DNA of 64,000 nt from Ganoderma boninense (Eukaryota > Basidiomycota > Agaricomycetes > Polyporales > Polyporaceae). The stretch is from contig CM035315.1 in the NCBI GenBank assembly GCA_002900995.3, forward strand, positions 419,967-483,966, read 5' to 3'. The notes under the pieces were generated by a model. It made no database searches. It had not been told where the DNA came from and saw nothing but the letters and a program-made list of their open reading frames with translations. The stretch's first letter is position 1; each line of letters opens with the position of its first letter. Below are positions 29,130 through 51,031 of the stretch, one piece after another. Made by a program: the position numbers and the translations under genes.

Positions 29130-29232
29130 CAGTGATATCGGTTACTTCAATATATTTGTCGACGATACTTATAACGAATGTCGTATATATTCTCTCAATG
29201 CTTACTGACGGCTGCTGAAATATTCGAGCACC
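29130..29232 (+). repeat. Left terminal inverted repeat of the giant element
   Basis: It starts CAGTGATATCGG. Compared with the reverse complement of 50385-50485, a 23-bp block (29170-29192, TATAACGAATG...TATATATTC) is identical, and the sequence on both sides (AATATATTTG before; CTCAATGCTTA and TGACG after) matches with scattered differences. Confidence 0.88.
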
Positions 29233-29510
29233 CTTCATGGCCTGAAGCCATCAATATTCAGACTCAAGTTCCAAATATTTGCGACTCCCTCCAACTATTT
29301 GCCGCTCCAGCCTGGCCACCTGCACCACCCAGACAATTTGGCGAATAAATATTTGAGTCGAGCACAAATATTCATACTCGCCACGGAACAGCATCGAGTG
29401 CGTCAAATATTTGGCCACCCACAAATATATCTCAGTCGCCGCCCAGCTCAGTGGCCGCCAACGCAAGCAAATATCAAAGCATGCAACCAAATATATATAA
29501 CACATTTACG
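29200..29510 (+). repeat. Left subterminal AAATATTTG-type repeat array
   Basis: About ten copies of AAATATTT or close variants (AAATATTC, AAATATAT, AATATTC) are spaced about 15-60 bp apart in otherwise GC-moderate sequence. Many are palindromic (CAAATATTTG). The same words fill 50035-50410 at the other end. Such arrays are the usual place for transposase binding sites. Confidence 0.75.
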
Positions 29511-31040
29511 ACACTGTATGTACATCACAGACCGTGACGTTAGCTGTGACAACCGCGGCACCGCACGCCCATCCCTCACCGACGACGCGTCGACGCGTTC
29601 CAAGAACGCGTCTCTCCTTGTCGGTCTCCCACCTTCCCCAGCTCCTCCACCTGACTGTCGCCTTCATCACGTTGTCCAGGACATCTCCCCTGGCCTCGAC
29701 ACAAGCCCTGCCCCAGACCAAATCCGATCCAGTCAAGGGACGCAAGGTGAGTACTGACATCCCCTCCTAAGAGTTCTGCCATGGCCCATCAAGATAGAAA
29801 ACAAGGGAGGCGCAGTGGTTAGGAATGCAACAGGCAGGGAAATAAGTCCCTGAGAGAGGCAGAGGACCAGGCCTATTGATCACGCCCCCCTTCCCCCCCC
29901 CGTCGTATCCTTCTGAGCACCGCGCTCGTATCGTCAATGGTCCCGCCATCCCGTCTCTCATTGTCAACCACGGCCACCCGAGCAGGCGGTCGCCACCACC
30001 ATCGCATCCGTCACACCCCTTTCCTCCATGGTCCTGTCCTCGCACACCCCCATCCCGTCGGTCTGCACGGCCCCGGGCCATCCAGTGCTGCATCGTCGAC
30101 CGTGGCCACTCGCTCCCCCTCACGTTGTGCCCTCGTGTCTCCGCGACCTCCGGCCTCCCGTCATGTCCGCCCGTTGCGCACTCCCTTCTGGCGCACCTCG
30201 CGCCTCTCGTCACACATATCCCGCCGTTCTGGCATCCCCGGCGATGGGATGTCTTGACCGGGCAGATAGGGCATGTCTCAGCTCGGGTAGCTTCTTCCAC
30301 GTACGTCCCGTTTTTGCTTGCTGCGTAGGAATGGCACTCACAGAATATCCCAGGCTGCGCTTTCTGGGACACTCAACCTGCCCTCCCTTCCGTCTCGGGC
30401 CCCTTCGCAGGATTCTCGTGTTCTCGACATCGGACGGAACGTGACATCGTCGGCCCCCGATCTCCCCTCCACTCCGATCATCCCTCCACCTTGCTGTCCA
30501 TGCCGCCGCGCACCGAATCTCCGTGAGGCTCGGTCTCGACACCTCAGTCCGAGCCCGATCGCATGCAGGCAGCCATCGCCAGGCTGGAGTCGATCCAGAT
30601 CTCGCACTCTTCAACATTCCGGTGCTCCGCACCAAGATCGCAGCCATGAAGCTCGTCTTCGAGGTCCACGAGACCGAATCGCAGACCCCGTCCGTGCAGA
30701 CGTGCCCGTTCCGCACACCCCACCCCCAGTGGTGCAGGGTGTCGTCGATGTTTGACTCGTCCCAAACCCTAGACCTGTCCTCAGGCTCCCGTACACTGAG
30801 TGCTGCTGCGAGCCCCACGCCCCCGACTCCGGGCCCCGCCTCGGGCTCGGGCAATGCGCAGGTGCACACCATCACGACGTTGGCGCGCCTCCTGGTGTCC
30901 TCGTCGTCCGTAACCGGGTTGCCGCTCCCCAACCTGTCGTCCATCCCACGACAGTTGTTCAGCACACCCTGCCCTCGCGTCCTCACTTGCCTTGTCTACC
31001 CCTCCATTCTGTCGTTCAAGCTGACGCTTAATTCTAGGTA
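29511..31040. other. Pyrimidine-rich left interior; unassigned exons likely
   Basis: The + strand is CT rich, with long but biased open frames on both strands. One frame (30523-31038, +) contains PVLRTKIAAMKLVFEVH, which could be an exon of the small gene at 31054. I could not build a full gene. Confidence 0.3.
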
Positions 31041-31053
31041 ACGGCGGATTTCA

Positions 31054-31478
31054 CTATGGGACGATCCCTTAGCAAAAGCGAATTCAAGGTATCGTACGGC
31101 ATCCTTGATTCCAATCCGAGCTGACTTTGCGTAGACATTCGCGTGTTTGTTCAGAATTGGACGACAGGCTCGTTTTCCGATCCCGTGGGCCTCATTCAAA
31201 CAGGTAGGTCCCACGGCCGGTGCGTGTGTGTGTAACTGAAGTGTGCTTGTTCAGGCCATGAGCGCATTGCAATTTCAGGTTATCGCGGGAAAGGGTTGCA
31301 AGTGGCGTTTTGTGGCCCCGCCAAGTTTTGGAGGCCGGCAAGTCTCGTTTTACAAGGTTCTATCCTTCTATTCCCTATGCATTGCTTCTTTCTGACCGTT
31401 TTTGCGTAGCCAAAAAACGGGGTCATAGCGGCCAGTTCCCAGCCCTTGTGAGTACTGCCATGTTGCTTCACGTTCGTT
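31054..31478 (+). CDS. Small spliced gene with a HicA-like segment (tentative)
   Basis: Consistent GT-AG exons read MGRSLSKSEFK, then TFACLFRIGRQARFPIP and ASFKQ, then AMSALQFQVIAGKGCKWRF, then VAPPSFGGRQVSFYKPKN. The 'F.....GKGCKWRF..P......FYKP' pattern resembles the small double-stranded-RNA-binding-like fold of HicA-type proteins, which also occurs in fungal genes of unknown role. The 3' end and any upstream exons (perhaps at 30523-31038) are not resolved. A role is not claimed. Confidence 0.35.
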
Positions 31479-31599
31479 GTCACACTCAACGAGGCGCAAG
31501 CATTGCATCTGCGCTAGCGAGAAAATGTGGCATCTCTGCAGAGTACATCAAGCGTTTGAGGTAGTTTGGCGGTGGGCGTTATTCTTGCTAACGTACTGT

Positions 31600-32247
31600 T
31601 CATGTGTTTGTTTCTTTGCCGTCTTGTTGTCGTAGTTCTTTCAATCCGCATGTCAAAGTGACCACTCTCATCTGCTCAGGAGCGCCAAGTGTGTTCCCAT
31701 TGCGAAGATGCGTAGAACCGACTGTAGGTGGTGTACAAGGCCGTCCCGTGACCAACCTCACCCCGTAGCGTACGAGGCTGCCGCCCGTCGATCAAGAGCC
31801 CGACTGGTGGTGCGCCAAGCCACTGCGACGAAGACCTGCATGATCCACCCCGACCATGACTGCTGCTGCGACCACCCGGTCGGTACGAAACGTACGTGAT
31901 CGTCGTCCTGACCGTCGGACCTTGCGCGTGCCCATACGTCTCCCCGTCGACGCCCACGCCCTCACCCACGAGACTCGCGTGCCATTCCGCCCGTGTCCCC
32001 CAGGCCACTGGCCGACAGCACCTTTTCCGACGTTCTTGAATCCTTTGACTAGTCCGCGCACCATTCCCTGCAGGTGCACCACTCCACCCCACCCTGCTGT
32101 CTTGCGCACTGTTCGTGACCATCCGGATCCCTCTGATTGACGCAGCGTTCACAAGAGCACGCAGTACAGAGCTAGGTACAACCATTGCCCCCCCGCCTGT
32201 CATCGCACCTCAGGCTTCCGACGTCTGCACATAAGTTCCTATGGCCC
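31600..32247. other. No assignable gene inside the giant element
   Basis: Short overlapping frames occur on both strands, without recognisable motifs or a supportable splice pattern. Confidence 0.3.
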
Positions 32248-33300
32248 TCAGGCCACCTCCATGTCGTGATATAAGCGCGATACTTCATTGTCAAAGGCCG
32301 AGGACATCGCCGGAAGGGTTCCGAAGGGTTTCAAAGCGAAACGAGGACGTTCATCTGTCCACCGGCGTAGCACAGGACCCTCAGAACGAAGCCGCAGTTC
32401 CTCGAGGGTAATTACTGGCAACACGCCACAATCTTCTAGCTTTCTCTCCTTGAACATGATTTCCTCAGCCACCGCAAGCTCGCCAAGGGAGTACAGCTTG
32501 GGATTGAACCATTCCTACAGACGACGTAAGAACGCAAGTCGGGAAAGAGACGATGAGGAACGTACTTCGCCAACTTGCCTCTTGACGTACACAAGAATCG
32601 CCTTCAGAAGGCACGTCCTGTCCTGGGGTGGTACGGGCACCTGGTAGTCCGTGTACCTTGCAATGGCAGCGCATACCTCGCGGTATAGCTCGCGCGTAAA
32701 GCCTTCTTCTTCCGTCCAGAAGAGGTGGAAAAGCCTCATCGTATCCCTCGCAATTTGCAGTTTCTCCGGGGGGAAGCGCATCTGCTCGAAGGCTGGAGTA
32801 TACGTGAAAACTTCGGCCCACCGCAGCCACTCCGCGTTTCGCGCTGATAGTCCATCTAGAGGTAGACGAAACTTTGTGTACGGTTAGAACAGTCCAAGCG
32901 TACGAAGTTCCCATGTACTTACTGCGCTAGACCGCACGCCGTCATCCCAGGCGATATCGTAACGCAGGTCGTGGAAGGAGACGTTCCCCTCGGCGTCTGG
33001 TTCCCGTCCCGATCGAAGGCGCACACGGATGTACAGCCGTACGGGCCAGCGGGCGGCCGTCGTTGGGCTCCGGAAGTCAGTGTTGGACTGGGGCGGCATC
33101 AGCATGACGTTGCCGCTGGTGAGCAGTGTTCTAGGTCGAAGAAGGCGTCGCTGGGGTAGAGCTGCTCCTTGATCCCGACAGAGAAGGGGTGGGGTGGTGG
33201 TGGTGGTGGTGGTGGAGGAGCAAGGGATCGAAGCCAGCGACGCATTGCGCGAGTGGTGCGATGTGGTAGTGGGCACATGTTGAACACGTGTCTCACCTCG
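32248..33300 (-). CDS. Hypothetical cargo protein of the giant element
   Basis: Three blocks join in phase. One contains ARWPVRLYIRVRLRSG and VSFHDLRYDIAWDDG and ends at a GTAAGT donor at about 32938. The next begins FRLPLDGLSARNAEWLRW and ends VKRQVGE at a GTACGT donor at about 32563. The last begins EWFNPKLYSLGE and ends VSRLYHDMEVA at the stop at 32248. The 5' end is unclear: a frame with GIKEQLYPSDAFFDLEHC lies just upstream but is one base out of phase, and a His/Pro-coding CCA repeat sits at 33195-33225. I do not recognise the family. The middle block is helical with aromatic-rich segments. Confidence 0.55.
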
Positions 33301-34759
33301 TGCTATCCCCTCAGCGTGGAAAATGGCGTACCATAAGCCGCGGGCTGAGGCTGCCTTTAGCTCGATTGCCCACTCCAGGGCACCACCGCTTCGTCCTCTA
33401 GTTGAAGGAGAGGTGCGAGGAAGTAAGTCGCTTTGTCCGGGCCAGACGACTGATATAACTCACCAAAAGCCCGGCTGCCTCACACTGGAGCGTCGTGAAG
33501 AGTCTCTCAAACCCCCTGCCATCCCATGCCCCTGTTCGCGTACCCACTCCAGCCTTCTCGCTATTTATATGAACCGGGGACGTGTTTCCCTGCGCACGTC
33601 CCCGGATCTCCGGCATGAGGACTTCCGGCCAGCGCGAAGATGGCCAGAAGTCCAGAGAGATTAGCGGGACTCTAAGTCGACGCGTCACTCGCTTCCATAC
33701 CAGGTCACCGTGGCCTAAGATGATTACATGAATTTACAACTGGAACCGAAACAAGCACCAGGACGCACCTCACGGATAGCGCTTGCAAATGCAGTCGTAC
33801 GGGTTAGACGAAGAGTGCCCGCAAGCGGGGACCTCGGTGAGCGGCGACACACATCGAGGGTAGATGTTGGCTAGAGTGAGAGGCAGTTATTGGGAACCCG
33901 CGTGCGGGTGCCTCTGAGCACGCGTGGCGTACATGAGTCCAGAGGGTAGATGACGGTAGGAAGGCGGAGATAGGACGTTGCTTGCGAGAGGCCATGGGAA
34001 CCATTAGCCTCCGCTCCGACTTCGAAGTCGCCGGACCTGACTCTGGACCAGATGTCAGGTCCATCATTGGTCCTGTATCCTCTTGATGCGGGTGCTGTCG
34101 CGGATTTGACAACATGGCGCACGTTGGGAATGGTGGGGGTTGGGAGGCTTGCTGGCGTCTCATCGAGCGCCGAGAAGGAGGTCGCGGGCAGGCCTGCGCA
34201 CCCGCGCCTGCGATGGCTGGGCGCCGTCTACCGTTCTTGTCATCCTCTTCTGGGTTCTGTGTTTGCATGGTACATTCTTTCGGTGAGTCCCTCTTTGCTA
34301 GTCCCTTTCCTTGGAGTTAGCTTATCCTAGGCATAGCTGGGCTTCCGCCGCGGCCCGCCGCCGTGGCCTCAAGCGTTGCCCTCAACGAGCTCCAGCTGCG
34401 CAAGACATCCAGTTCGGCGAGGAGTGCAAGCCGGGAAATGCGCCGCTCTCCATCGTGCATTCTCAAGCCACCTCATAATACCCAGGTGCGCCCGTAGTCC
34501 ATCTATAGTCTCAGGTTGTAGACATTTGGATGACTTGACCGTCGTAGAGCGTCGGTCGGATCGACGGACATGGCTTCTCCGAACGCTCTCCGTTCTTGGA
34601 ATGTGGGCCACCTGGCATGTCTAGCGCATCTTCTCCCCCTATTGTTGGGTCAGCTTGTGAGTGGTGTTGGGAAGATTTTGATCTTGTCTTACTTCTGTCA
34701 TAACAGCCACTTGCCACCAAGTTTTCCCCACTCAGACCACTACAGACGACATCCTTCTT
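33301..34759. other. Unassigned region upstream of the dioxygenase gene
   Basis: Minus-strand frames such as WDGRGFERLFTTLQCEAAGL (about 33490-33550) may be 5' exons of the 32248-33300 gene, but no continuous structure could be supported. The rightward promoter of the dioxygenase gene should lie near 34700. Confidence 0.3.
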
Positions 34760-36152
34760 ATGCGAGACACATCCGGGAAGGGTATCCTTCTCAGAGGGGA
34801 AAAGCGGCTCTGGGAGGACAGTGTTGGTGCGGACGACGACTTACAGAGTGTCCTCAGTGATCTCACGGACCTTGATGAGCTAGAGAGGTGTGTGGATGTC
34901 CGCCTCGTCGTTCCCTGGTTTCTCAACATTAGTAGGGATATGGGAATCTCAGCTGCACCACGGCCCAAGCGGCTGCGCAGGCAGTGGGATGATCTGCGTC
35001 GTCCACAACAGGTATCTCGCGTCATCGTTGGTCTCAATCGTATTGCAGAGAAGGCGGTGCACATGGCACAGAAGGGGGAAAGTACAAGTCAGCTTTCTCG
35101 CCCATCACACTATGCATGCTGGACTGACTGTGTCCATTCATCAGCGGTCTTTACGTTTTTCCATTTGGAAGAACAGGTCAGGAATCCCAAGGATGCAAAG
35201 GCCCAGGGGTCCGTCACTTTTGATGGAGCTTCTCCTCGCCGTGCGGTCAGTGCCGATGGCTTCGACTTAGTATACCACCTGCCTGGGGCCTTCCGCGGCC
35301 GTACCCTAGTGAGAATCCTTGTTTCTACCTCCGCTGCCTGGGTTGACGTTGTGCAATGATCATCCATAGGAGGAATTTACCGCTGGTGCCTACAAGTGGG
35401 CGTCAGTGGCTCCGATCACAGCTGCGTCCAAACATGATTTTCCTGAGGCTTACCGGCCTGGAGAATACGTGGGCCAGACGCAGATATGCCAGTTCTGGCA
35501 TGCTACAGGGCACAAGGTATGTGTATCCCAGTGTCAGTTGCAACTTAACAAATACTTACAATTCTACGTGCAGAACAAGGACGCCCAGGTCGGATATCAG
35601 ATGAGGCAAACAGGGCCGTCTTTCCGGGGAGCATTCAGCGCCATGAAGGACTTCGCTTCAGTGGCAGCATTCTGCAGCACAGCTCTGAAAGCCATTGACC
35701 CTTTCCAGCATCAGCTCCTGTGGGATGTCCGCGAGCGTCGCTCAACGAACCCGGATTGGCCTGAACAGCCGATTTTCAGGCTGTACAATCCCACTCTCCT
35801 GTGGGAGTGCTGCGAAGTGGTTTACAATCGTTGGTCTCCTCCCCATTATGATCGTGGAGATCCTCATATGTCTTGGGCCGCCATCGTTTACTTCGGTACA
35901 TTTGACGAGGCCTGGTTTGAGTTTGAACAGATAGGACTTCGAGTGCGCCAGGGGCCCGGAGACGTTGTTTTTTTTCGTGCGCGCGATTTGAAGCACGCGG
36001 TGGCAAATTGGGGAGACGGTGAACGTTGCTTTCTAATCTACTTTACGCATGAGTCTGCATGGAAGAACGTTGGGATGGGTGGCCAGTGTGCTTCGCTTCC
36101 AGTGCAAATCCCTGACGGGTGCAATTTCGTCACATTTGACTTGAATATTTAG
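34760..36152 (+). CDS. TET/JBP-like 2-oxoglutarate/Fe(II) dioxygenase
   Basis: Two exons, 34760-35308 and 35370-36152, give 443 aa; one or two further short in-frame introns (about 34889-34935 and 35081-35143) may reduce this. The C-terminal domain carries the double-stranded beta-helix signature: H342-x-D344 in SPPHYDRGDP and H392 in DLKHAV as the Fe(II) ligands, and R402 in GERCFLIYF as the 2-oxoglutarate-binding Arg. The spacing and 'W..IVYFGTF' segment fit fungal TET/JBP enzymes, which oxidise 5-methylcytosine or thymine in DNA. The N-terminal half is basic and poorly conserved (RPKRLRRQWDD). It lies convergent to the KDZ transposase, 309 bp from its end, an association known from basidiomycete KDZ elements. 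The substrate is inferred from family. Confidence 0.8.
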
Positions 36153-36460
36153 TCGCAACCCACTGCAGAACGTACTGTTTGACATGTCTTGCCTTGACTT
36201 CAGTCAATCTCTCATACCCATACGTTAGCCCAATAATACATGTTACTTTTCTACAGAGCTGCCATAATTACATGTTAATTGCGTCAAGTGCCTCTTCCCA
36301 TGTTCGCGAGGCGGCCTGCCTTGCGCTCGTACGTGATTGCATTCCCTGGGCTGCCAAGTATACTTGTGCTTCCTCTCGGGCTTCCAGCACCAGCGCCCGT
36401 ATGGACTACAACCAACCCACAATGCAACGATGACAGCGTGGAAGGCATGGCGACAGCAAC
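36153..36460. terminator. Shared 3' region between convergent dioxygenase and KDZ genes
   Basis: This is the roughly 308-bp spacer between two convergent stops. AT-rich words (AATAATACATG, AATTACATG) at 36232-36280 could serve as polyadenylation signals, but none is certain. Confidence 0.35.
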
Positions 36461-39400
36461 TCATAGAGTCAGTGGACAGTAGGCCTCAGGAGTCAGGACT
36501 ATGCATACACTCACCACGTCGTACTCTATGCACTCATCTGATAGAACCTTGGCCTTTTGTGTGCAATTGTACACATCGTGGCGGCCGTCGTCGTCCACCA
36601 TCCGCTCGCGGTGCTTGTGCCAAGCCGTGTCGAGGTGCAACAAGCACTTCTCGCTCATTGTTCTGAACATTTCGCTCTGTTCATAAGCGTACGATGTTGC
36701 CCCGGGGGAGGAATACGGTAGTACGGCCTTTGCCCTTCTCGCCCATTCCTCACTGGCGAAATGAAACCCTCTGCGAAGGGCCTTAGATTCCGCGATGACG
36801 AGATTGACTTCTTCGTTCGTTCGGGCGAGATTCGCTCGTGAACGGAACCATTGCACCCGCTGGACTGATTACACCCTCATTTCAGTACGACAAAAGCGAC
36901 ATGATAGGTTGGAAGTAACCTTCATTTGCCCATTGGTTCTGGGCTTCTGATGTACCATCGTGCGGAGGTGCTACATGGAAGATCCACGAACCGACGACAT
37001 TGTGATCACCGAGTGTGCGATGGTCCTGCAGATGGAAGCCTCCAGGGTTTGAAGACTTCTTAGGCTGGGATGGTGTAGAGATCCCGAGGTCAGTGGCGAC
37101 GTTGATCGCTTTGAGAGACTTCGGAATGGCGACCGTGACTGCGAAGCTGTTGAGGCGGGTTGACAAGGCATTCATACGTACAAAATTGTCATTGTACTGA
37201 GCAGCCAGGCGAAGGATTTCGACATGGACGGTGGTGATTGCACTGTTGGCGGCTATGTTGTCTTTTTGACCGCGCGCGTGCTTCCTCTTCGACTGCACCG
37301 TGGCTGACTTGCGACTAATAGCTTCCTTCAGGGTAGCGATCAAATCATAGGCCAGGCCGACCCTGATGCGTAGCTCAGCCTGAGCGAGGCCCGTGCACTG
37401 TGTACGTCCGAAATCGTCAGCACCAAGGTCAGAGGGTAAACCGAGGATTTCGCGCTCAGGCCCTTGCTTAGGAAGTCGAGCGACGTCTTCATCCTCCGCG
37501 TCACTTTCATCCGTGCTGCCGTCAACCTCCTGTTCACTACTGGACTCTTCGTCAGTTGCGGTATCCTCGTATTCACCTGCGGACGTATGGGTGTCTTCTA
37601 GGAGCGACATGTGTCTGCTTTGTTGGATACGAAACTTCGCGAGACGTTCGCGCAAGTTGCCTCGTGCCGACCGCAGAGTACGTGTTGTATCAGAAGATAC
37701 TCCTTGTCCACGATGCATTCGGTAGAACGCATCTACTCTTGTCTTCAGTGCAACTCTGTAGCAGAAAGCGGGTTGTAATTGTTGGGTGTTCACATTAGTA
37801 CACGTTAGTCAATGCACTCACTGTTCGCGGGATAGCTGGATACCGAGGTGTACGAACGCAATGTTCGTTCGCGTCAGAGTACAGTCTGATGACTCTCCCT
37901 TTCGCTTCTTTGTTCCGGCCGTATGTACAGCCTTCTCCGTGTTGACGTTAGCAGAGGCTTGCGCAATGAGTTTGTCGTACTCATTGCTCTCGCTGGGGAC
38001 TCAACATCATATGGTCGGTCAGCGTGGTATCAGGTCGTGACACAGTTACGCGATACTACCTTGGCTTTTGTCCAGGACATAGACACTTTGGCGCTGCGTA
38101 GCAAGACGGGCAGCCTGGCGATCGTGGTAGTTTGCTGGTGTGAATGGCTCATCGTCTAGGTCCATCTGAGCCCACTTGTAAACAAGCTCCGGGCCAGCCG
38201 CGTACGTAATCCCTGCAAAGTCCAGTGCTTGGTCCAGTTGCAAAACTAACTTCTCACCCAACTTGCGCGCAAGGTATTCGGCTACAGCATTCCAGTCGTC
38301 ATAAACTGGTGAATGATAATGAATAGCTATCGTGGCAGTCGCCACGCACCTAGGTTGACTTGCTTGTCCCAGTTGTAGCCACCGAAATGGTCTGACAAAC
38401 AGTCCTGTCTCGCCCCGCCGTTCATCTCCCGCGTACTGCGGCCAGTGTCGTGAAGAATCGCCCAAGCAATCTCCACAGTCTCGCCGTTCGAGTGGCCGTT
38501 CCCTTGCTTGTAGCACATCGCGAAATCGACTTGGCAATCTTCTTTATGACTGAGCATATGCATCTGAGGTAGAAGGATCTTCATAGACTCGACGATCTTA
38601 CGCATCTCTGGAGGTAACGCCCACTCTTCCCATCTGCTTAAAATGTTAGCGACGTATGTGCATCCAACGTCGTAACTCAGCAACCACTCGAGAAGTTTTA
38701 GGGCACATTCAGTTGCCCCGCACATAGCTAGATCCACGAGGTGAAATCTGCGAAAATGTCAGTGATTGGACGACGATACACCAACTGAGATGTCGTACTG
38801 TTCGTTGCCGACTAGGTCAACAACTGATCGAGGGAAAAAACAGCCATGACGCAGGCATGTGATGGCAACGACTCCACTGATGTCCATGTTACGAAATTTG
38901 CCAGCCCGCTGCGACCGTGTCACCTTGAAGCCGCTGCATGTGCGCACCTGGAGAGATCAAGTCAGCCTCACGTTCGTGTTTTAAACAGGTCAGTGCAAGG
39001 CCTACGACTGTGCGGTCCTTGGACGTCTTCTTCGCGAATGACGCCATCTTCTCAGCGTCCGCAAAAAAGGCCTGTCCAGCAGAGAGACTGTAGTCTGACT
39101 TGTCGTCGCGCTTCGACTTTTTGTGCAAGCTGTGATTTCCGTCCGCGCCCATGAAAATGCGGTATATGTAGCTAATATGTGTGCGTCGTTAGGAAATTGC
39201 AGAATTGGGTGGATGTATCGTATTCCTCACCGAAGCCGTGGTTCGGTGGCCTCCCAGTTTGCAGGGAGATTGACACCAGGCCATGGACAGGCAAAACATG
39301 GCACACTGATCAGGTTGTCAGGCCGGTTTGGGTATTTGACCCCATGGCATTGCCCAGATCGCTTGACCATCTGTAAATGTTTCCAAACGCGAAAGACGAC

Positions 39401-40561
39401 ATTGAATTCATGGTACCGTTTCTAGCCAATATTACGGTCAGATAACACGCCTGTGTTTCATGGAATAGCTCAACGAACCTTGCTTTTGCCTTTAGACTTC
39501 CTGTCCAGCTTTCGCATGTAGTCGTGAGGAGACTTCTTTGATGTGAGGACGTCTAAATGGGCGTCGCGTAGTACCTCATGGGTGAAGAGCGTGTTAGGGA
39601 GATCTACAGTGCCAGGGAAGAGGCCAGCGTTGAGGGCTTGGTCGAGCTGCGTAGGACAGCCAACACACGCGCAAGGTTGGATGGCGCATTGATGAATGCC
39701 GTTCGTGTGGACGACGATGAACTGGAGGGGCTCGAGCTTGCCTTTGACTCTCTCCGGGCAACGCTCACCCTGATGCCCGAGCCAACGGACAAACCCAAGA
39801 TCGACGAGGTCTGTAGCGTCGAAGTACTTCCCGTTCCACCGTTGAATCCAGTGAAAGGGATGGTGAGCATGGCGCACCACAATGCAGGATGAACAAAGAG
39901 CGGGTGAGTCCATGCACTCGTGGCAGGTGGCCGTGGCTGGCTCAGAGTGACATGCCTGGCATTCACCGGGAATGAGCGGATGGGCCGCGATACGCAGCAA
40001 GCCGGCGAGGAGTGTGGGGAACAAGGCTTCCCACTCCTTGAGACGGTCTCCAGCTCGCTTCTTCACAGTGCATCAACACTTTGGTAGACATTGGACAAAT
40101 TTCCTACTTACCTTGGGTTTACGAGCCTTCGGCATGCTATCGTTGGGCATATTTGCGTTCGGATCCTGCGCGGCCTGAGCAGGGTCGCCGGCCGCAGGAT
40201 CAGTGTCCTGGGTGCGGAATGTCGAATATGAGGAAGTGTGACGTTCCTCGGAATGTGAAGGAGAGGCGTAGGAGTTGTCGGCGGGAAGGTATGTCGAGGT
40301 CGAGTCACCGCCGCCTGTGTCGTCCGGATATTCGACCAATGGTTCAAGACAAGGGCGTTTAGGAGTCGGAGGAGTGTTGGAGTCCGGGGAGACATCCAGT
40401 AGTTGGACTTCAGCAGAAACGCGACGGTCAGTGAGAACCAGGCGTCCGCCAGAGTACGCGTAATGGTCATGACATGCGGCAAAGTTGAGCCTCTCGCCCG
40501 ACGGCCTTGAGATCTTGCCAGAGAATTTGCGTGCGTTCTTAGCTTGTTTAAGGCCACTCAT
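36461..40561 (-). CDS. KDZ transposase with CxC2 cysteine cluster
   Basis: The start is MSGLKQAKNARK at 40561. Exon 1 (40112-40561) and exon 2 (39479-40060) join in phase; further exons follow to about 36461. Exon 2 carries the CxC2-type cluster (CQACHSE, CHECMDS, LCSSC, then HPFHWIQRW). Later blocks have CPWPGVNLP, then YIYRIFMGADGNHSL, DISGVVAITCLRHGCFFP, YDVGCTYVANILSRWEEW, LPQMHMLSHKEDCQVDF, GETVEIAWAILHDTGRST, REMNGGARQDCLSDHFGGYN and NWDKQVNLG. These are the core motifs of Kyakuja-Dileera-Zisupton transposases, with the conserved acidic residues present. A Ser/Glu-rich linker and a C-terminal VQWFRSRANLARTNEEVNLV helix follow. Reading frames are open in every block, so the gene may be active. 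It should cut and join the element's ends. Confidence 0.88.
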
Positions 40562-40845
40562 TGAATGTTGAGGCACGGGAACGACAGTATGAGGTGAAAA
40601 AAGAGGAGGGGGGGACTTAGGTGTCGAGGGGGGTGGCAGGATCGGGGTGCAACACAGACGGCGGCACTGAGACTGGCTGTGCAGCAGTCGGGACTGCAGA
40701 CTCGCAGCATTGAGAAGCGCGCCTGGGGTACCGGGAAGGCCCGAATGTGGCATTAGTTCCACAGCATGCTAGCTTGATCCATAACAAGTGCACCATACTG
40801 ACTTCTTTCATTCGACGGACACTCTATCAGTATAATGTACATAGG

Positions 40846-42966
40846 CTAACTGGGGTACAAACGAGGGACGAGCGGAGCGCGGCCTGAACAGTGGAAAAAC
40901 ATATCAACATAGAAGCCAGCCAGTTCACGCTCCAGAGCAAGAATTGCGTCTTGCGTTTCATTAGACGCTAGAGGAGATGCCTTTAAGAGGCATGAAGGGC
41001 ATCCGGGCCAACGAATCAAAACGTCTCGCAAAGCGTTCAAGGCCTGGATGCGGCGATGAGGGAGTTGTGCGAATAGGCCAGGAGAGTCGTTGGACGGAAG
41101 AGCATCGACCGCCCGCAACCAGCCTGCAGGAAAGACTTTGCCAAGAAATGACTCCCTTCGGGCCTCCTCGGGACGAGACGCGATCTCCGGAGGCCTCAGA
41201 AACCGGTCCAAAGCAAGAAGCTCATATCGGAAACCCAAATCGAACATCTCCCATATCACGGCAGGCGCAAGCTCGTCGGGGACGGTGTGAAACGTGCGGC
41301 CATGCCAGGTGACAGCGGCATTCGTGGTGATATCAAAATCCTCCTCTCGGAAGACGTCTCCGAATATGTTTTTGATCTCGATCAGACGCTTCCCGTTGCG
41401 AGTGGTGGACGTAGGGTCATCGGGGATTCCATTCAGAAACGATCGCCACACCTGGGGGGCCAACTGAGAGGCACGAGTCTTCGGAACGTGGAGGATATAG
41501 AGCCAGATGGGACGTGCGCGGACCCAGTTGGTCAAATATCGTACTTGTCGTACATCGTCCTTCGGGCCTAAGACCATAGCAGGCTCAGGGATCCAATAAC
41601 CCCACAGCTGATCCGAGGGCCGTGCTGCCATGGAACGATCGACTGCCAACAGGGCCGCAGACCAACTCGGAATGGGAGGCGGCATCCAACGATGGGGTAG
41701 ATCCTGAAATTTGTCACGTCCACGGATCTGCGAAGGATGTGGGGTCGTGGTGGCATTCCTGTCATCTACGTTTAGAATATAAGAAGTGAATATAACACAG
41801 TACAGTCAACAGAACGGGGAGGCTGGCGAACTTACAAGGCTTAGGATGGGGACGTACGGAGGCTGGTACACGACCTCCCAGGGTTGCCTGACTGCGGGAG
41901 GTAGACGCCGCAATGGCGGCCCGGTTGCTAGCCTTAGCCTCTCTGATTGACATGACCGAATGGTAGTCCTCCAGATCATAGACCGCCGCGGAGGGTACTC
42001 TGGAGATATCGAGATAGCCGTGCCCACCCTGCATCATGGATGCAAGATGAGACTCCCCCACAAGACCGTGGAAGATAGGTGTATCCACGCCGGGAAAGCA
42101 CTCCGTACGCAGCATCGAGGGCGTGGCAGGAGTAGTTTTCCGCCGAATGCGAATGTCGGAATGGAGAAGGACCCGCTGACGCACGAACCAGACAGGAATT
42201 TGAGCATCGAAGAGCGTCTGGACGTGTTGGGGGGTAGATGTCCACGCGCCCAGAAGAGACATGTCTGCGCAAGTGAATCCATCAATGGCGATGAGGCCAT
42301 GGATCCTGCGCTGGTACTCCAGGTAACCAGCAGTCATCAGCCAGTGCCGCTGCAACTCCGCCACCTGGAGAATCTGGTCCGATAAGGTCGCTGGCATGAG
42401 CGACAGCCGCTGTAGGGCGTGTTGCATCGCTAGCTGATGCCACAGGATATCGCGTGCGTCACCGGGATGAACCGTCCGAGCGTAATCGGCGACATGAGCC
42501 GAAATCTGGCCCACCAAGGCACGCAAGGGCGCCAGGAATTCTTCAGAAAGAAGGCCAAAACCAGAGACGGGTGCGCCGACGAGGGGGACGAATTGTTCGA
42601 TCCTAGGCGCACTCCAAATGGGAGCCCATTGGTGGCTCGCGTCCACGCGTTTTGGGATTGTCGCCAGGTAGCCGTAGCGCGGAACGTAGATCTGGGGCCA
42701 CTGGACAGGATCCACGGCGCCGTACCTCCCATCAGATCGAAGGATAACATCCACGATTCCTTGAACAACTTCGGGAACGAACTCGGCATTGGGAGTCGTA
42801 GTCAAAAAGCCGATTGTCGAGTCCATGGCCGCCACAAGTCCGTCCGTGAAACGGGGGGCTCCTAGCCCGATAACAAGTGCGTTGAGTAAGCCGACCCGAG
42901 ATCAACATAAGATGAGGCAGACATACCATCGAGTGGAAGTGCATCATCAATATTGAAAGCCGGCAT
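40846..42966 (-). CDS. Cargo protein of unknown function, 661 aa, complete
   Basis: Three exons, 42927-42966, 41836-42861 and 40846-41765, join in phase (1986 nt with stop) from MPAFNIDDALPLDG. The protein is globular and rich in Trp, Pro and aliphatic residues, for example LWHQLAMQHALQRL, AELQRHWLMTAGYLEYQRRI, AIDGFTCADMSLLGAWT and QIPVWFVRQRVLL in the first half. GYWIPEPAMVLGPKD, RYLTNWVRARPIWLYIL and VWRSFLNGIPDD follow in the second. This combination occurs in a large Agaricomycete family of uncharacterised proteins, recognised here only by general pattern. No catalytic motif, signal peptide or clear membrane segment is seen. It lies 285 bp upstream of the KDZ start on the same strand. 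Confidence 0.75.
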
Positions 42967-44152
42967 TTGTGCGTCTGAAACTAGACAGAGGTCCACTGTC
43001 AAATTCAAAACTGCAGGCGGGGGACAGAACGACGGTAGCCTAGATGACCTGCCACCGCAAAACTCGAGCCACCGCAAAACTCGAAGTTGTGCGGGTACGA
43101 AGCCGGTTCAGGGACTCGCAGTCGTCTGATCCAACCTCTAAAGCGAATCGTACACCCAGACATATGACGCACCTTCCGATACGCCCAAAGGGATCCAATG
43201 AGGATGTCGCTTGAGACAGGGCGATCGACATGCAGACTCATCAGCGACACCCCAGACGCCAATGGTTTTCCCGCGCCTAGATCCTTTGGGCGCTTACAGC
43301 CATCTCCGTCTTGCGCACGTCCAAGTGCTAAACCGTCGGGCTTTCATCTCGCGACCCCTCCGGTAAGGATCCTGACAAGTTCATGGAAACATGGTACTGA
43401 TATGAAAGACAAGGTTTGTTATGAACAGACATGTCGTAAGTCACACTGGATGAGGTTCTTCAACGACGTCATCACCGTCGCCACTCAGACCGTCCCCCGA
43501 GACTCGGCGAATTGAAGGTCAGTAAGTCCATGGCTCTAAAAACCACGGCAACGCACTGAATTTTTGACCGCCAGCATAGCGTGCCTGAAAACAAGCATTG
43601 TGATCGAACTTCGAGTTCGCACAATGGGGATGTCACCGCCTTCCACGACTTCGAGTCCGGTGAGGTGCAGAACTCCCACTCGACCTCATCACATATGCAC
43701 GCCTCGCATGACGATCATATTACCGAATTTCCCTGACTGCCTGGCTGTCTGAACAAAACCTGTGAGGAGATACTTCGATCTTGCCCAGGATCTGCAATTA
43801 ACATCGCGCGTCAGCCAGATCAAGAATCGGCGCTCGTCGTGCGCCAAGGGTTGCAATTTGCAGGAATGCCTGTAGGTTGTCCCTCACCAAAATTAGGCCC
43901 TCTACAGGCGAGGATCGGGTGGTAGCGTCGCAACATCTGCACTCCGCGAAACGCTGCGTGTTCACGTCTGGGTGAAGGTGCATCCTGACGTCCAGACAAC
44001 CGACTGGGTTTAAAGTCGGCGAGCCCAAGGCCGTGTCGCGTTGGCCCCATCTCCCCAGGCTTCTGGCATCCCGCTCCCGCTTCTCCGTCTTTCGTTTCCA
44101 GCCCCTACTCCTTCGTCTTCCCTGCCCCATTCCACACTGCCAACTTTTCACC
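42967..44152. other. Intergenic region inside the giant element
   Basis: Short frames only; the longest (43005-43262, -) is 85 codons and has no recognisable motif. A 17-bp tandem repeat (CCACCGCAAAACTCGAG) sits at about 43050-43083. This region separates the leftward (KDZ, 661-aa) and rightward (SIM, WFNN/RGG) transcription units. Confidence 0.35.
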
Positions 44153-46067
44153 ATGCCTCACCTGCCCAAAGTAGATGACCGTCTCATTCACATCTTTCTC
44201 TCTGTTGTTCTTTTGCGAGACTTGTTGCCGCACGTCCGCCGTTGCCCATTTGGAGCCAAGCATCAACCCAAGGTGGACGCTGGCCAGGATTTGAACAACC
44301 CGCAGCGTCTGTTCATCATCAAGGAGCAGGCACGTTGACGTTGCTCTCGTCCTCTCATGTCGCACAGGTACTTACAATGACAATCTTTTGCGCGTAGTGC
44401 TGCGGCATCGACAGCATCCGGTGTAACAGCCACGGATTGCCGTACAACAAGCAGCTGACGGAGAAGCAACGACTTGCGGCCATCGCGCAAGTTGTGCAAC
44501 TAGAGCCATTCCCGTACAACTGTGAAGCCCTGCTCGACTGGTGTGTCAACTATGTGGCGACGCGTCAACATCTTCTCGACGCCGAGAACTCGGGAGTTCC
44601 AGCCCCGGCCGTCCAGCGAGCTGGCTCGGCCCCCGCCCCTGCCATGCGTCCTCCTCTTGAAGCACGCCCCCCCCCCACGCCACATGCCTTGCGCCATCGT
44701 CGATGGGTGTCCGGCCTTATACCCCCCACCTCTCCCCGCGAAGGGGGGTCGGCACCTCGAGGTCCGGCTCGTGTTATTCCATGTGCTCGTCCATCTTCTT
44801 CTGTGTCGTTGAGCGTGCCTGTTACAACGCTGGCCAGGGTATACTGCTACGTCAGAGTACGTGTTCTATTGGGCTTGTGACGTGAACTGTGCTTACGTAT
44901 GTGTGACAGAACGGATGCCACCCAGAGGTCGTCGAGGTAGACGCCAATCAACAAGAGGCCATGACCTACGTTAACCTCCGCCATCCTGATATTCTGAGGG
45001 TGTTCGGTCTCAAGCCTCGAGCTCGGAACCTTACCGAGAGGATCCAGGTGTATGACGTTTACGGAGACAAATGGTACCACCCCGCCACTGTCTCGCTGTG
45101 GCTCCGACTTCACTCCAACGAGGTCCTCATCTTGAAAGCATCGACGATCACGCGCACACCAGGGCTGGAGGACTACACGATCAAGACCTTCAAGAAACCG
45201 GCCCGTCCCGGGGTGGACGCATTACGTGGCTTCCTAGCCCTCAGTCGTACTCCTGCAGACTGTCGCCTTCCTTTCAGCCCTGTGCCACCCTTGACCGTGA
45301 TGCTGGCAGATGTTCCAGAGAACGTTGATACAGGCAACCTGTCCACACGCACTTCTACCACGACGACCACCAAAGCATCTACATCCCGCCCCGCCACACG
45401 ACATTCAGCCGTTGCAAGCAGCTCTCGCGCGCCAGTGCCCGACCGAGCCCTGGGAGCCAAACGTCACAAGCGCAACGACGGTTCGGCTGGAGTCCTCCAA
45501 GACGACATCATCGAGCTATCCTCTGATGAGGAAGTCCCCTCTCTCTCGAAGGGTGCTCCCCCGCCCATCGGCGGGGAGGTGGCCCCATCTCTCCCTGGCT
45601 CCCACCGCCCCCGCAAGCGCCATGTACACCACAACGTGGTCAACACCGTGGTCCTCAAACCGTCACTGCCACGCAAAACCTCGACGAACAAGCCAGTCAT
45701 CATCATCTCTGACGACGATGAGCCGGCGGCTGGGTCGAGCGCATGCGGAGCCAGGTCCAGCATGCGCGCAACCGCTTCGAGCGCGCCCCGGGCCCAGGCC
45801 AGCACGTCGACGCGCAACTCCAACTCGACAGCCCCCATGCAGCTCAATCCTGCCGACGTTATTGTTATTGACGACGACGACGACGACGACGGTCCACTGA
45901 CATCCACCGTGCTGGATAGAGCTTCGGGAGCGCGAGCCAGCCAGGTGCTGTCGTGCTCGTCGTTCACCGTTATCAGACACCGTCGCGATAAGGGCAAGGG
46001 CAAAATACAGGCTGCTGAGGAGAACGCTGACGACAGTGGCGCAGACTCTGACAAAACACTTTGCTAG
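44153..46067 (+). CDS. Cargo protein with three SUMO-interacting-motif-like segments
   Basis: The last exon, 44910-46067, is firm (386 codons, stop TAG); the exon before it ends at 44856 (AGA|GTACGT) and contains KQLTEKQRLAAIAQVVQLEP and FPYNCEALLDWCVNYVATRQ. A first exon may start at 44153 (MPHLPKVDD), but its splice to the next is unresolved. After a conserved block (YVNLRHPDILRVFGLKPRAR, YDVYGDKWYHPATVSLWLRL) comes a Ser/Thr-rich disordered tail with DDIIELSSDEE (about 45500-45532), PVIIISDDDE (45694-45724) and DVIVIDDDDDDD (45856-45891). Each is a hydrophobic core followed by acidic or Ser residues, the form of SUMO-interacting motifs. No RING finger is seen. A role in recruiting SUMOylated chromatin proteins is inference. 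Confidence 0.65.
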
Positions 46068-46706
46068 ACGTACAGCATCGCCGTTCGCAATTACTTACAG
46101 TGGCGATGGACCCGCTCTCCATACTACTCTACATCATCTCCTCTCTCTTAAATCAACCTTTCCGAGACAGCTATAGTCGACAGTCGTTCACATTTTGTTC
46201 GATTCACCCTCCTTCGCTGCCCTTGCGGGCAAAATTGACGTTTACGTAGTACATATGAACGTCGTATATGCAACCTTAAGCCTCCCAATCCGTAATCACT
46301 CCCATACTTAATTGCCAGCACTCCCCACTCAGTCCTTGACCTTTGTTCATGTCCCAAGTCGTACGCTATGTCCTGCCTGTAATACGTTGAAGCCTGATCC
46401 CAGTGCAGAGCGCTGACATCTGCAATCATAGATCTAATTGCTCGTAATCTGCAGGATGAATCCATTGCCTGCGAGTGTGCAGAAATTCCAAGGCTCAGCA
46501 GACGAACATCTTTGGAGAATTGGACCGAACAGCCGGGTTGGTCCGAGTGCTGCCAGTCTAACAGCCGAGGGTGAACGACGCTCCGCCGCCCTTTGCTCGT
46601 CACCACGACGAGCGTCTTCTCCCCCTTGCCACGAGTCTGCGTGCCATAGCCACCCCTGCTATCCCTCACCATCTTCGTCTTCTGCGCACTCTAAGCTGCT
46701 CCTGTC
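46068..46706. promoter_or_regulatory. Spacer between the two rightward cargo genes
   Basis: No gene is recognised. Pyrimidine-rich leader sequence (46590-46700) precedes the start at 46707, as is usual for strongly expressed fungal genes. Confidence 0.35.
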
Positions 46707-49700
46707 ATGTCCAAAGCTCAACGTGTCCAACAAAAGTCGAAGCGCCAACCGAAAGCCCTTGAGCTTCGTACCTCCGTCCCATGGAAGTCCAATGCGACGG
46801 TCATGAGTCTGCTCATGTCCAAAAGGCCGCAGTACCAAATCTACCTCAAGCAAAAGGACACCGTGAAGAAGCGACAATGGCTGGAAAAGACGGAGGGAGA
46901 GGTGGTGACAGCGTGTCCGCAGGAATGGGTCAACCATTGGGGAGCTGACCGTTTGCGCCAGGTGAGTGGACTGTGGTTTGATTGCAGAACGTGATACTCA
47001 CGCGCACGTGCAAGTCGTGTCGTGCGTGGTTCAACAACAACCGCACCATCGAAAAAAACGAATCTGATAAAGAGGGTGCTACCTCGGAAGAGGAGGGAGA
47101 GACGGGCCCTTCAGAGACACCAGGCGCGAAGAAGAAGACGGTCGCAGCAACGTCAAAAACTGTGCTGGGTAAGGTTGAAGACAATCCACTCGCCAAGTCC
47201 CTGCGGGCGCGCAAAGTCTCGCCCATGCGTCTCTGGGGTAGCGCACACAACGAGCGAGTGCAAAAGATGGTCATGAAGTCCGACAAGTCAAAGATTGCAG
47301 CCTGGTCGTACTGTGCTGCTCGTATCTGGAAGCACGAGCTAAGCGATGAGGAACGTGCTGAATGGACACAGAAGGCGAACGAGGTGAATGTCTCCGAGGA
47401 TCAGCAGTGCTTTCGGTGAGTGTCTGTGAGCGGGCGTGCACTGAGGGGAGAAACTCACAGCATACGTAGTAACCAACTGGGCATAAGCCCGTTGCTGGCG
47501 AGTCTCATGACGGGTATGATCGGCATGGGGCCCACGCAGATTGGGAAGGCGGTCTTCTCTCTGCGCGTGGCTTACCGAGCTGCAGATGGGCAGTTGATTT
47601 TTGAAGAGTGCGTAAACTGCCTGTAACAACTGCGATGCTGAAGCGTATTCTGATCTATGTACCCAGCCAATCGTTGGCGGAGGATCAGGAGTCCCAGTGC
47701 TTCGTCCCTTTCGCCCATTTTGAAGGCGGGAATCCTGCAGAAGAGGACGAACGATGGATGAGATGGGCGAATCAGTATATAGGTAATGTGGTCACCTATA
47801 CGACACGAAGAGAGAGCGGCTGAATGGAACGCCAGGCGCTAACCCCGAACCTCGTTCGACTGAGCTACTATACGACGAAAATGGAGGGGCGAGATTACCT
47901 GAGTTCACTGGGACGAAGGATGTTTTCTGGACGAGGCGGGTCTTGCGTGCATACTTTGACATGCAGTGGAGTAAATACGTCGAGCCGTATCCATGACGCA
48001 AGCTAACACACGGTCATCACAGATCTCCGCGGCGGCGAACCATCTCCAGATTGGTGGAAAGCTGTACTCACGTCTCCTGAGGAATACGTTGGCGAAGAGT
48101 GGGTCGCCGACTTCCAAAACGATCCTTTGGAGCTGAACGCCAAAGGGATCACATTGTTATACATCAAGTTACATGATGCGGAGGCGGAAGGCTCACCTTT
48201 CGAGTTCAAGCGGGTCAGTACGACAGCCGCGGTGGAATTCCATGTGCACGGACTACCTGCTGTGGATGAAGAGGAGCCTGGACCATGCACGGAAACCTTG
48301 GGCGACAAGCCAGCCGTCGCCGTTGCGGAACCCTCACATCTGCCTGAGGAGCGCGCTGACCGCGCCCAACACCCCGCGCTCGCGTCCGTGCCCGCCCCAG
48401 CCTCGCTCGCGTCCGTGCCCGCCCCAGCCTCGCTCGCGTCCGTGCCCGCCCCAGCCTCGCTCGCGTCCGTGCCCGCTCCAGCCTCGGGCGGGACGCAACC
48501 CCTCACGTCTGCACCAGCGGAGCGCGCTGACCGCGCCCAACCACCCCGCGCTCGCGTCCGTGCCCGCCCCAGCCTCGCTCGCGCCGGCCCGCCTCAGCTC
48601 GCTCGCGTCCGTGCGCCGCTCCACTCGGCGGGAACGCAACCCCTCACGTCTGCACCAGCGGAGCGCGCCTGACCTGCGCCCACAACCCCGCGCTCGGTCC
48701 GGCCGCCCCACCTCGCTCGCGTCCGTGCCCGCCCCAGCCTCGCTCGCGTCCGTGCCGCTCCAGCCTCGGGCGGGACGCAACCCTCACGTCTGCGCCAGCG
48801 GAGCGTGGCTGACCGGCTGTTGCCGCCCCACGCTCGCGTTCGTGCCCGCCCCCGCGCTCGCGTCCGTTCCGCCCCAGCCTCCGGCGGCACGCAAGCACAG
48901 TCCCCAAGAGTGCTACCCTCACTGCTTGAAGAGAAGGCCGACGCTGTTCTGGAAGCGATAGATCAGTCACGTTCCACTCCAAAAGCCCCCGCCAGGCAAA
49001 CGATGGGGAAGCGAGCGAGCTCTGTGCAACCTGAGCCTCGTGCGCCTTCTATGGACACAGTCCCCCGACGGGGATCTTCCATGCAGCCCGACAGTCGCCG
49101 AGCGGCCTCGCTTTCCAATATCCCGGCCACTCCGACGCGACGCATGTTCACTCTGAAGTCATACACGCCTCGTAGTGCAAGTTCCCCATCCACGCGAATG
49201 CGCTCAGAGTCTCCGACGCGCCATTTGTCTCATGTGAGCAACGCCCCAGTGCTGGGTTTGGCCAGAATCAGAGAGGAGCGTGACGACATGGAGGACGAAC
49301 AGCAGGATTTTCGTGAACCTACTTCCAGCGGCGTATCGACACCACAAACCATGGCCTCCTGGTTGGATGGCAATGCCTGTGACACCAACGATCCGTCCGC
49401 GTTCATGGAGCTGCCGCAGGAAAGAACATCGACTGAGTACGCACATTCTGAGGTCGGGCCGCTTGCTATTGCTTCAGCACCGATGGCAGAAGCACCAGAA
49501 TGTGGCGGCATGAACGCTGGTGGAGCGGGCGTTATTCACGCCCAGTCGCAGACAGCGAGCACAGTAAGACGGGGTCGCAGCAAGGCAGTTGTACCGCCGT
49601 CGACAAGACAGTTGCGCAAGCGTCAGGTAGCTGAAGATGCCGGCGAGGACTTGCAGGATGGACACATGTCTAAGAAGCAGAAAAGCGAGGAAGAGTGAGT

Positions 49701-50025
49701 GCAAATTAACTACATCACGCAGCGATTGTGAAGCTGAGCTCTGTGAAATTGCAGCCACATTGCAGGCGCAACCCCAAGCAAAGTAGGGACGGAGGAGTCA
49801 GAGGGCCAGACTGTCAGTGGAAATCGTGGCCGTCGAGGTGGAGGACCTACGCAGCGAGGTGGCAGGGAGAGAGGTAGTGGGTCAGCTCATCATGGGGATA
49901 CCAGCAATGCCGTCGAGGGGGCTGAGAAGAGCGGACGGTCAGGAACCGGTGGACGAGCTGCTACTCGAAGGGGCAGAGGGCGAGGTCGCGGAACTGCAGC
50001 AGGTAGACAAGGGGCAAGGCAATGA
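46707..50025 (+). CDS. Large basic cargo protein: WFNN segment, Pro/Ala repeats, RGG tail
   Basis: Exons 46707-46961, 46988-47415, 47470-47607, 47667-47782, 48023-49694 and 49755-50025 have clean borders. The N-terminal part is basic with a conserved core (QEWVNHWGADRLRQ, CKSCRAWFNNNRTIEK) whose WFNN motif recalls the third helix of homeodomain-like folds, then PMRLWGSAHNERVQ and WKHELSDEERAEWTQKANE, the latter resembling an HMG-box end. A globular block follows (EDERWMRWANQYIG, SPDWWKAVLTSPEEYVG). The region 48355-48890 encodes repeats of the unit PAPASLASV and contains at least two frame changes. After it the frame runs through NLS-like RQLRKRQ and KKQKSEEE to an RGG-rich tail (GNRGRRGGGPTQRGGRERG). 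DNA/chromatin binding is inferred. The stop lies only 460 bp from the right end of the element. Confidence 0.65.
48355..48900 (+). repeat. GC-rich minisatellite encoding Pro/Ala/Ser repeats
   Basis: Units of about 27 bp (core CTCGCGTCCGTGCCCGCCCC) recur in clusters at 48380-48480, 48545-48570, 48715-48760 and 48830-48870. They are interleaved with a larger unit carrying GGGACGCAACCCCTCACGTCTGC at 48491, 48630 and 48773. Single-base losses between units change the reading frame. Confidence 0.85.
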
Positions 50026-50034
50026 ACAATGGGT

Positions 50035-50410
50035 GCAAATATTTGGCGTGGCCCTGTTTTATTTACACTGACATGAAATATTTGTACCGCATTAGGACTG
50101 TCTTTATGTCCAGCCGGAATATTCATGAGTTTGTCAAATATTTGGGCCTGTGCGAATGTTTGTCAGTGGCTCAAATATTTAGTCAGCGGTTCGATGGAGG
50201 TCGAGTGGCAATATATTTGGCCTGGACTCGAAGATGAGAGAGTGCAAATGGCGCCAGGAGGGCAGATATTCATGGTGGGCATAAATATCTGAGGCCTGCC
50301 CTCATGGGCATGGCGTGCAAATATAAATGTGGCTCAAATATTTAGTTCCTATGTGTGAATATTGGGCTGTCCTCCTCCTCCTGTGAGCTCAAATATTTGA
50401 GTGGTCGTCA
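50035..50410 (-). repeat. Right subterminal AAATATTTG-type repeat array
   Basis: At least ten copies of CAAATATTT or variants (for example at about 50038, 50085, 50137, 50173, 50334 and 50390) occur, mirroring the left array at 29200-29510. Confidence 0.78.
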
Positions 50411-50485
50411 ATAAGCATTGAGTGAATATATACGACATTCGTTATAACTAACATCAACAAATATATTTAACTAGCCGAACTGGTG
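50385..50485 (-). repeat. Right terminal inverted repeat of the giant element
   Basis: Read on the minus strand it starts CACCAGTTCGGCTAG and carries the 23-bp block shared exactly with the left end (50424-50446). The overall match to the left end is good from about base 18 inward and weak at the very tip apart from the first CA. Confidence 0.88.
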
Positions 50486-50492
50486 GATAGTA
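50486..50492. repeat. Right 7-bp target site duplication (GATAGTA)
   Basis: This is an exact match to 29123-29129. Outside it the gypsy integrase sequence resumes. Confidence 0.9.
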
Positions 50493-51031
50493 TGGGCTGA
50501 ATCTTGTTGACCGCCCGCTAGTTCCCGGATCTGCGATATCAGCGTGTGCAGCAAGCTATGGCCATGGTTGACTTGGCCTTCAAAGCTTTTATTAGCCCTT
50601 ACGCAGGATAAAGTGACCTCGCTCTACAACTCCATGTGGCTTGTTGAGTTGTAGGTGTGAAACGAATATGGGGTGATCCCATATTTCTTCATGAGTATCT
50701 TCAAATGCACCTTAAACTCACGGGCCACTGTCGGTCCACCACTGTTCTAATCATTCCAATACTCAAATAAGCTTGCTCCAGAAGAACTGAGCTATCCTCT
50801 CCGCGATGATGCAAGAGCGGAGTGCTTTGCTTCTTATACTCCTGAGAGAATCATCTCGACATGCAACTATGCATGTGAAAGCTTCTGGGCAGTCGGCATA
50901 ATGCATCACTCAAACAATATGCTTGGTGAATAGGCTTGCTGGGTTGAGATTGTAAGAGGCACCTCCATCTTTTGGTGTTCTTTATCGGCAACCCCATGAG
51001 GCACGTGCCTACTCCCCTTTGGTAGAAGGCC
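50486..51031 (-). pseudogene. Ty3/gypsy integrase core, decayed part 5' of the insertion
   Basis: Minus-strand fragments fit a gypsy integrase when allowing frame changes: a GVVERGHFILR-like stretch at about 50640, a segment matching the 'DNGPEF.G' region with changes at about 50720-50750, and RSTRFSPYY at the insertion point (50494-50520). Stops and one-base indels are frequent, so this part is decayed although the C-terminal part at 28476-29129 is open. It enters an assembly gap at 51032. Gag, RT and RNase H are not present and may be missing or collapsed into the gap. Confidence 0.7.

Follow-up and report, generated by a model that had tools for sequence, protein, structure and literature searches.

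Does the DNA around a KDZ transposase gene and a TET/JBP dioxygenase gene in Ganoderma boninense move as one unit, and if so, are the other genes within it passengers or parts of the element? The locus lies in a stretch of 64,000 nucleotides (C12:419967-483966, hereafter the window), whose own numbering is used for all coordinates that carry no contig name; the genome searched for relatives comprises 55.6 Mb in 74 contigs. The block at 29130-50485 is confirmed as one transposon insertion inside an older gypsy element. We read it, with a probability of roughly 0.85, as a complete large Kyakuja-like KDZ DNA transposon. Published systems are compared as described in the papers cited (PMC12730594, PMC11040006, PMC12810828 and PMC12134995).

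Ends and insertion site

The left end of the element starts with CAGTGATATC and the right end, read inward, with CACCAGTTCG. The 7-bp target-site duplication (TSD) GATAGTA is perfect, as had been predicted, and its two copies, both directly flanking the element, are the only ones on the plus strand of the window. The original prediction of inverted ends holds for arms of 92 nt forming a terminal inverted repeat (TIR), and the identical core within them, given there as 23 bp, is in fact 24 bp long. The searched zones held 26 pairs that combine a common 7-mer with CA..TG ends; the pair reported here scored 57 and the runner-up 12.5, the latter value being also the highest obtained with 1,958 random 130-bp pairs. 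The ends are rich in short repeated motifs: all 15 occurrences of CAAATATT in the window fall inside the two ends (expected 0.82), and CAAATAT, counted on both strands, occurs 30 times, with 22 copies in the ends, two elsewhere in the element and six outside it. When the ends were shuffled 2,000 times, 22 copies were never reached.

Empty GATAGTA sites, which the original prediction had proposed to seek in other strains, were found in five gypsy copies of the same genome. The joined flanks of the element (121 bp) align end to end with these copies at 92-93% identity, and each alignment crosses the junction with a single GATAGTA. Together with the TSD, the five sites bear out the claim that the KDZ-bearing block was inserted as a unit. 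Over 1.5 kb the left flank shares 97.4-98.4% identity with the same gypsy copies, and therefore the gypsy host copy is fairly young and the insertion took place not long ago, in agreement with the recent activity that had been suggested.

The right flank (50486-51296) is 88.6-88.8% identical to the gypsy copies with 34-35 gap openings in 523 bp, and a scaffold gap of 100 N lies close by at 51032-51131, with another part of the gypsy element beyond it. Both features would favour a composite, in which two end sequences and neighbouring elements resemble one unit by chance or through assembly. A composite does not account for the TSD and the five gypsy sites that run continuously across the junction, for the high identity of the left flank, for a sister element (see below) that has its own TSD and empty site, or for the repeated gene order (see below); hence we give this explanation almost no weight. 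The right flank looks like poor sequence beside a scaffold gap, and the junction itself is clear.

Gene content and its recurrence in the genome

Six gene models lie inside the element (TET, KDZ, X, S, HMG and R; Table 1), in line with the predicted transposase and at least five other genes, S and R being less well supported. When five loci were compared by protein, two of them (C1:628-668k and C12:2250-2290k) had homologs of TET, KDZ, X and HMG in the same order. The first contains a bounded sister element of 26,533 bp (C1:629697-656229) flanked by the 7-bp TSD AATAGGA. Out of 35 candidates its end pair ranked first by a small margin in score (13 vs 11); the end alignment and the empty site C7:3458792 (94%; 92% over 350 bp) confirm its boundaries, and two more distant empty sites on C14 match its joined flanks at 78%. 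When like sides are compared, the termini of this sister are similar to those of the window element (CACCAGTT at the R-side terminus, CAG.GA at the TET-side one). Its TET-side end is also present at C9:3705713 and C12:2283374, where it borders the same genes on their TET side as expected, and a third further copy at C6:3895710 has an orientation that does not fit.

A search with the window TET exon returned 16 rows, reduced to 13 by dropping the second pieces at C9:2928971, C6:3912002 and C6:3910042. At five of these 13 loci (the window, C12:2270k, C2:363k, C9:3714k and C1:649k) TET, KDZ, X and HMG stand in one order and orientation, which identifies the four as element genes, not passengers. 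All eight HMG rows, the window included, have a divergent X at 5.0-13.6 kb, and six of them a listed KDZ within 25 kb. Pfam detected 29 TET matches in the genome, of which 24, here called the compact type, are followed on the same strand by a KDZ at a distance of 2.2-5.2 kb. Three matches, including that of the window, are accompanied by a convergent KDZ together with X and HMG, and two (C14:382322 and C6:2263261) lack a listed KDZ in the surrounding 20 kb; KDZ neighbours were counted from 150 of the 152 KDZ matches in the genome. In a KDZ tree of own-genome sequences (13 rows and 129 columns, with a long-branch warning), the window transposase groups with those of two sisters (96/94), and this group is joined by two compact TET-positive transposases (99/98).

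This comparison of gene sets, which the original prediction had also called for, bears on its proposal that the block is the basidiomycete equivalent of giant cargo elements such as Starships, with host genes moved as passengers. Starships are likewise large fungal elements with many genes moving as one block (PMC12134995), and the size of 21-27 kb and the capture of a host Rrm4-like piece would suit such an element. In contrast to the tyrosine recombinase and accessory cargo of Starships (PMC12134995), the present element has a KDZ transposase and a gene set that recurs, and instead of host genes varying between copies, TET, KDZ, X and HMG are constant at five loci. No tyrosine recombinase was detected among the element's models and the part of its open reading frames (ORFs) scanned with Pfam. 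The host piece itself survives as a broken copy that carries deletions and is 83% identical to its source. The description as multi-gene cargo is therefore mostly not supported, and a Starship counterpart appears improbable.

The source of the fragment, C12:1961975-1963002, is a host gene with an RRM domain (E 1.3e-9), a PAM2 match at the cut-off and an MLLE match below it; two of its three PDB matches are the RNA-binding protein Rrm4. Identity between the two copies ranges over 74-86% (83% over 725 aligned sites). The element's copy has lost about 250 bp internally and several shorter pieces, has kept an intron-like stretch, and its frames are broken. No further genomic places of the fragment were listed in a search that missed the window's own copy too. 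With the host copy taken as ancestral, C-to-T changes affect 27/192 CpG positions vs 21/298 elsewhere (Fisher p 0.013), a bias that weakly suggests past methylation; the whole element is not CpG-poor (0.98). Judged by sequence comparison, the fragment is the only captured host DNA in the element.

The window transposase has the PF18758 domain and the associated cysteine cluster that define the KDZ superfamily, and its nine model exons read without a stop. The window contains the stretches DGNHSL, YDVGC and GETVE (DGNYSL, YDVGC and GEMVE in two sisters), which are candidate sites of the KDZ catalytic acidic residues. Gene X shows 72% identity over its full length to a Ganoderma leucocontextum protein, and its best matches are in polypore fungi. 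Pfam and NCBIfam scans assigned X to no family, and the G. leucocontextum relative is also without a Pfam family. A good-quality predicted structure of this relative (predicted local distance difference test score, pLDDT, 80; predicted template modelling score, pTM, 0.81) gave no match in a search of PDB and viral folds. The genome search with X gave 31 rows, of which the second pieces C12:2265358 and C11:2210956 were omitted and 17 with E < 1e-40 were tabulated. From the remaining 12 weaker relatives, seven are divergent to a KDZ at 5.3-6.0 kb, two to one at 15-17 kb, and three have none within 20 kb; by this arrangement they probably belong with another KDZ clade.

Four proteins related to gene S were found in polypore fungi, G. 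leucocontextum first. The stretches IIELSSDEE, VIIISDDDE and VIVIDDDDD of S presumably represent putative SUMO-interaction motifs. The HMG assignment comes from one sister protein (28.9 bits, Pfam cut-off 25.4); the homolog of the other sister reached 20.3 bits, and the window copy had no Pfam match.

Table 1. Coordinates of the element, its ends and its genes in the window.
Feature	Position	Strand	Description	Basis
Whole transposon	29130-50485	.	21,356 bp; CA..TG termini	TIR, TSD, end-pair scoring, empty sites
Left TSD	29123-29129	.	GATAGTA	Single copy at five empty gypsy sites
Right TSD	50486-50492	.	GATAGTA	Single copy at five empty gypsy sites
Left TIR arm	29138-29229	+	24-bp identical core 29169-29192	85% to right arm
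Right TIR arm	50387-50478	-	24-bp identical core 50424-50447	85% to left arm
Left subterminal array	29152-29494	.	CAAATAT/ATATTTG motifs, 10 starts	Motif count
Right subterminal array	50036-50464	.	CAAATAT/ATATTTG motifs, 12 starts	Motif count
Rrm4-like fragment	30218-30932	+	Decayed, partly deleted copy of host gene piece, intron-like stretch included	Host copy C12:1961975-1963002
TET/JBP dioxygenase gene	34736-36152	+	Exons about 34736-35308 and 35370-36152; start unproven	Tet_JBP match, Tet structures
KDZ transposase gene	36882-40753	-	First-pass model with about 9 exons whose ends are unproven	Domain matches and gene model
KDZ catalytic domain	38372-38950	-	PF18758 positions 50-217; one stop inside, in model intron	E 1e-27
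CxC2 cysteine-cluster ORF of transposase	39470-40072	-		E 6.5e-23
Gene X	40846-42826	-	No known domain; 636 aa with a single intron (41766-41835)	Gene model, homologs
Gene S	44153-46067	+	Homologous to 576-aa G. leucocontextum protein; SUMO-interaction-like stretches in C-terminal half	Three-exon match
HMG-box gene	46707-47419	+	Divergent	Via sister homolog
Gene R	48007-49698	+	Model uncertain; GC-rich repeats inside	Weak similarity to last gene of sister element

Some further features were recorded at these loci. The GC-rich repeats of gene R (48352-48894) are spaced at 27 and about 141 bp. In the sisters, S and HMG are separated by an additional gene (L018:7241-7822, minus strand), which is 67% alike in the two, has no Pfam match and did not match the window's S ORFs, the sole window sequences with which it was compared. 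The C12 sister locus has two X matches (C12:2262670 and C12:2265358) with stops in both matched stretches. The G. leucocontextum relatives of X (P0005) and S (P0030), both recorded with a longest contig of 917159, may share one contig and one element. Outside the element, a Transposase_21 (tnp2) domain at 24850-26442 (minus strand, E 4.4e-14) marks another DNA transposon 2.7 kb to the left, and a 98% identical inverted repeat of 1 kb (1383-2373 and 19656-20650), whose arms end at the window's two other N gaps, is perhaps a single element split by scaffolding.

TET active site and relation to published elements

A KDZ/TET link was reportedly drawn by Iyer in 2014. Complete TET-positive Kyakuja (KDZ) DNA transposons with 7-bp TSDs have been published, also from Polyporales (Kojima 2025, PMC12730594), so that the association of KDZ and TET in basidiomycetes was, as the original prediction had it, already known. 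The present element has in common with them the KDZ transposase, the TET/JBP gene, the 7-bp TSD, also found in the C1 sister, the CA..TG termini and an Agaricomycetes host. It differs from their descriptions in that source by its own 92-nt TIR, the subterminal arrays, a TET with HxDxxD and without Asp337, and possibly also by the extra genes X, S, HMG and R. Compact TET-positive KDZ elements of the same genome, two of whose transposases were placed as sister to the large type, have TET and KDZ on the same strand, unlike the large type, and lack X and HMG matches in the surrounding 20 kb. Cryptococcus KDZ1 resembles the window element in belonging to KDZ, in its large size (about 11 kb) and in its long TIRs, but has an 8-bp TSD, a 241-bp TIR and CxC1 instead of CxC2 (PMC12810828).

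The Tet_JBP match of the window gene (31.5-31.9 bits) is under the Pfam cut-off of 34.9; its predicted TET/JBP identity is supported by solved Tet structures, which match it at E 2.5e-8. Its best matches are from G. boninense and Dichomitus squalens. In NgTet1, Asp234, which occupies the place of CcTet Gly331, binds N4 of 5-methylcytosine (5mC) and blocks 6-methyladenine (6mA), and in CcTet Asp337 compensates (PMC11040006). The Dichomitus relative (P0035) and the TET of a sister were aligned to CcTet, with H326/D328/G331/D337 opposite H/D/D/A in the former and H/D/D/V in the latter. The window TET, aligned to NgTet, shows the same pattern: in its motif HYDRGDPHMSWA (HxDxxD) the second Asp aligns with that of NgTet HKDNLD.

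Kyakuja TETs are described as having conserved Asp337 and Gly or Ser at 331 (PMC12730594). The window lineage thus lacks the residues of AG-type TETs (Asp337 with Gly331 or Ser331 in CcTet numbering; PMC12730594), and with HYD in the window it also departs from the HxE of the PE type (PMC12730594). TETs from the compact elements C16:134k (HRDKSSPMSVHD, aligned to CcTet) and C1:6525k (HRDTSARPGWLD), the two of 24 examined at these positions, and the TET at C14:382k without a nearby KDZ (HQDKSSLMSVHD) all have Asp at 337, with Ser or Ala at 331. Because Asp occupies the 331 place and Asp337 is replaced by Ala or Val, the TET of the window lineage, read against PMC11040006, is predicted to act on 5mC as a conventional enzyme of the NgTet1 kind and not of the CcTet kind.

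These differences also bear on whether the element is an ordinary TET-positive Kyakuja within published families and nothing new. The 7-bp TSD and CA..TG termini are as published, and TET-positive Kyakuja from Polyporales are on record (PMC12730594). The TIRs, in contrast to their absence from two Laccaria families, and the Ala or Val in place of the conserved Asp337 (PMC12730594) argue otherwise, and we hold an ordinary Kyakuja to be rather unlikely. Set apart by these text descriptions, what is new relative to published Kyakuja would be the large architecture, the TIRs, the orphan gene X and the NgTet1-like TET.

Several observations weigh against a complete large Kyakuja-like transposon. 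The two Laccaria families are described without TIRs, a trait not given as defining (PMC12730594), and the element, which has a 92-nt TIR of 85% identity, is for this reason filed as Kyakuja-like. Searches of the genome with the 200-bp left end and with the 24-bp core, allowing up to 2 mismatches, found no second copy of the ends, such as the original prediction had proposed to look for, and no movement of the element was observed. From the 13 TET rows, eight are without the full set (two with TET and X only, one of compact type and five with none), and nine of the 17 strong X rows lack a listed KDZ match in the surrounding 25 kb; therefore either many of the copies are broken or the genes are less tightly linked. 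The S and R positions are occupied in two sisters, which agree with each other at 63% for S and 46-60% for R, whereas window and sister agree at 22% for S (E 0.009) and at 20% for R (E 5e-5 when two sequences are compared). A search with the window protein (E 0.001) found gene S only in the window. Finally, the DGNHS stretch lies outside the transposase gene model, in a neighbouring frame.

Proposed mechanism and implications

For a Kyakuja-like transposon of this kind, the KDZ transposase would bind the ends, with the CAAATATT arrays as likely binding sites, excise the element and reinsert it with a 7-bp stagger. An anti-silencing role of TET has been proposed for Kyakuja (PMC12730594); here, a TET with a 5mC-type pocket would oxidise methylcytosine on the element and keep it expressed. 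As guesses, the HMG-box protein may bend or bridge the ends, S could connect to host chromatin via its SUMO-interaction-like stretches, and X might be a partner protein in the KDZ clade of the window and in another one.

A broader and tentative possibility is that a large Kyakuja-like lineage with an anti-silencing module (a 5mC-selective TET, the orphan X, a SUMO-interacting adaptor and an HMG-box protein) shares the genome with compact relatives whose CcTet-kind TETs are 5mC/6mA bifunctional, the two types splitting substrates and host pieces being captured at the DNA level. In such a division, 6mA would be excluded for the window TET because of the Asp in the position of NgTet1 Asp234.

The fully bounded KDZ/TET element supplies the ends, target site and gene set needed for a transposition assay, and gene X, unmatched in Pfam, NCBIfam and fold searches, becomes a named recurring companion. 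Two TET kinds within one superfamily are separated by published specificity residues, so that a single genome allows a test of whether 5mC or 6mA is the substrate of transposon TETs.

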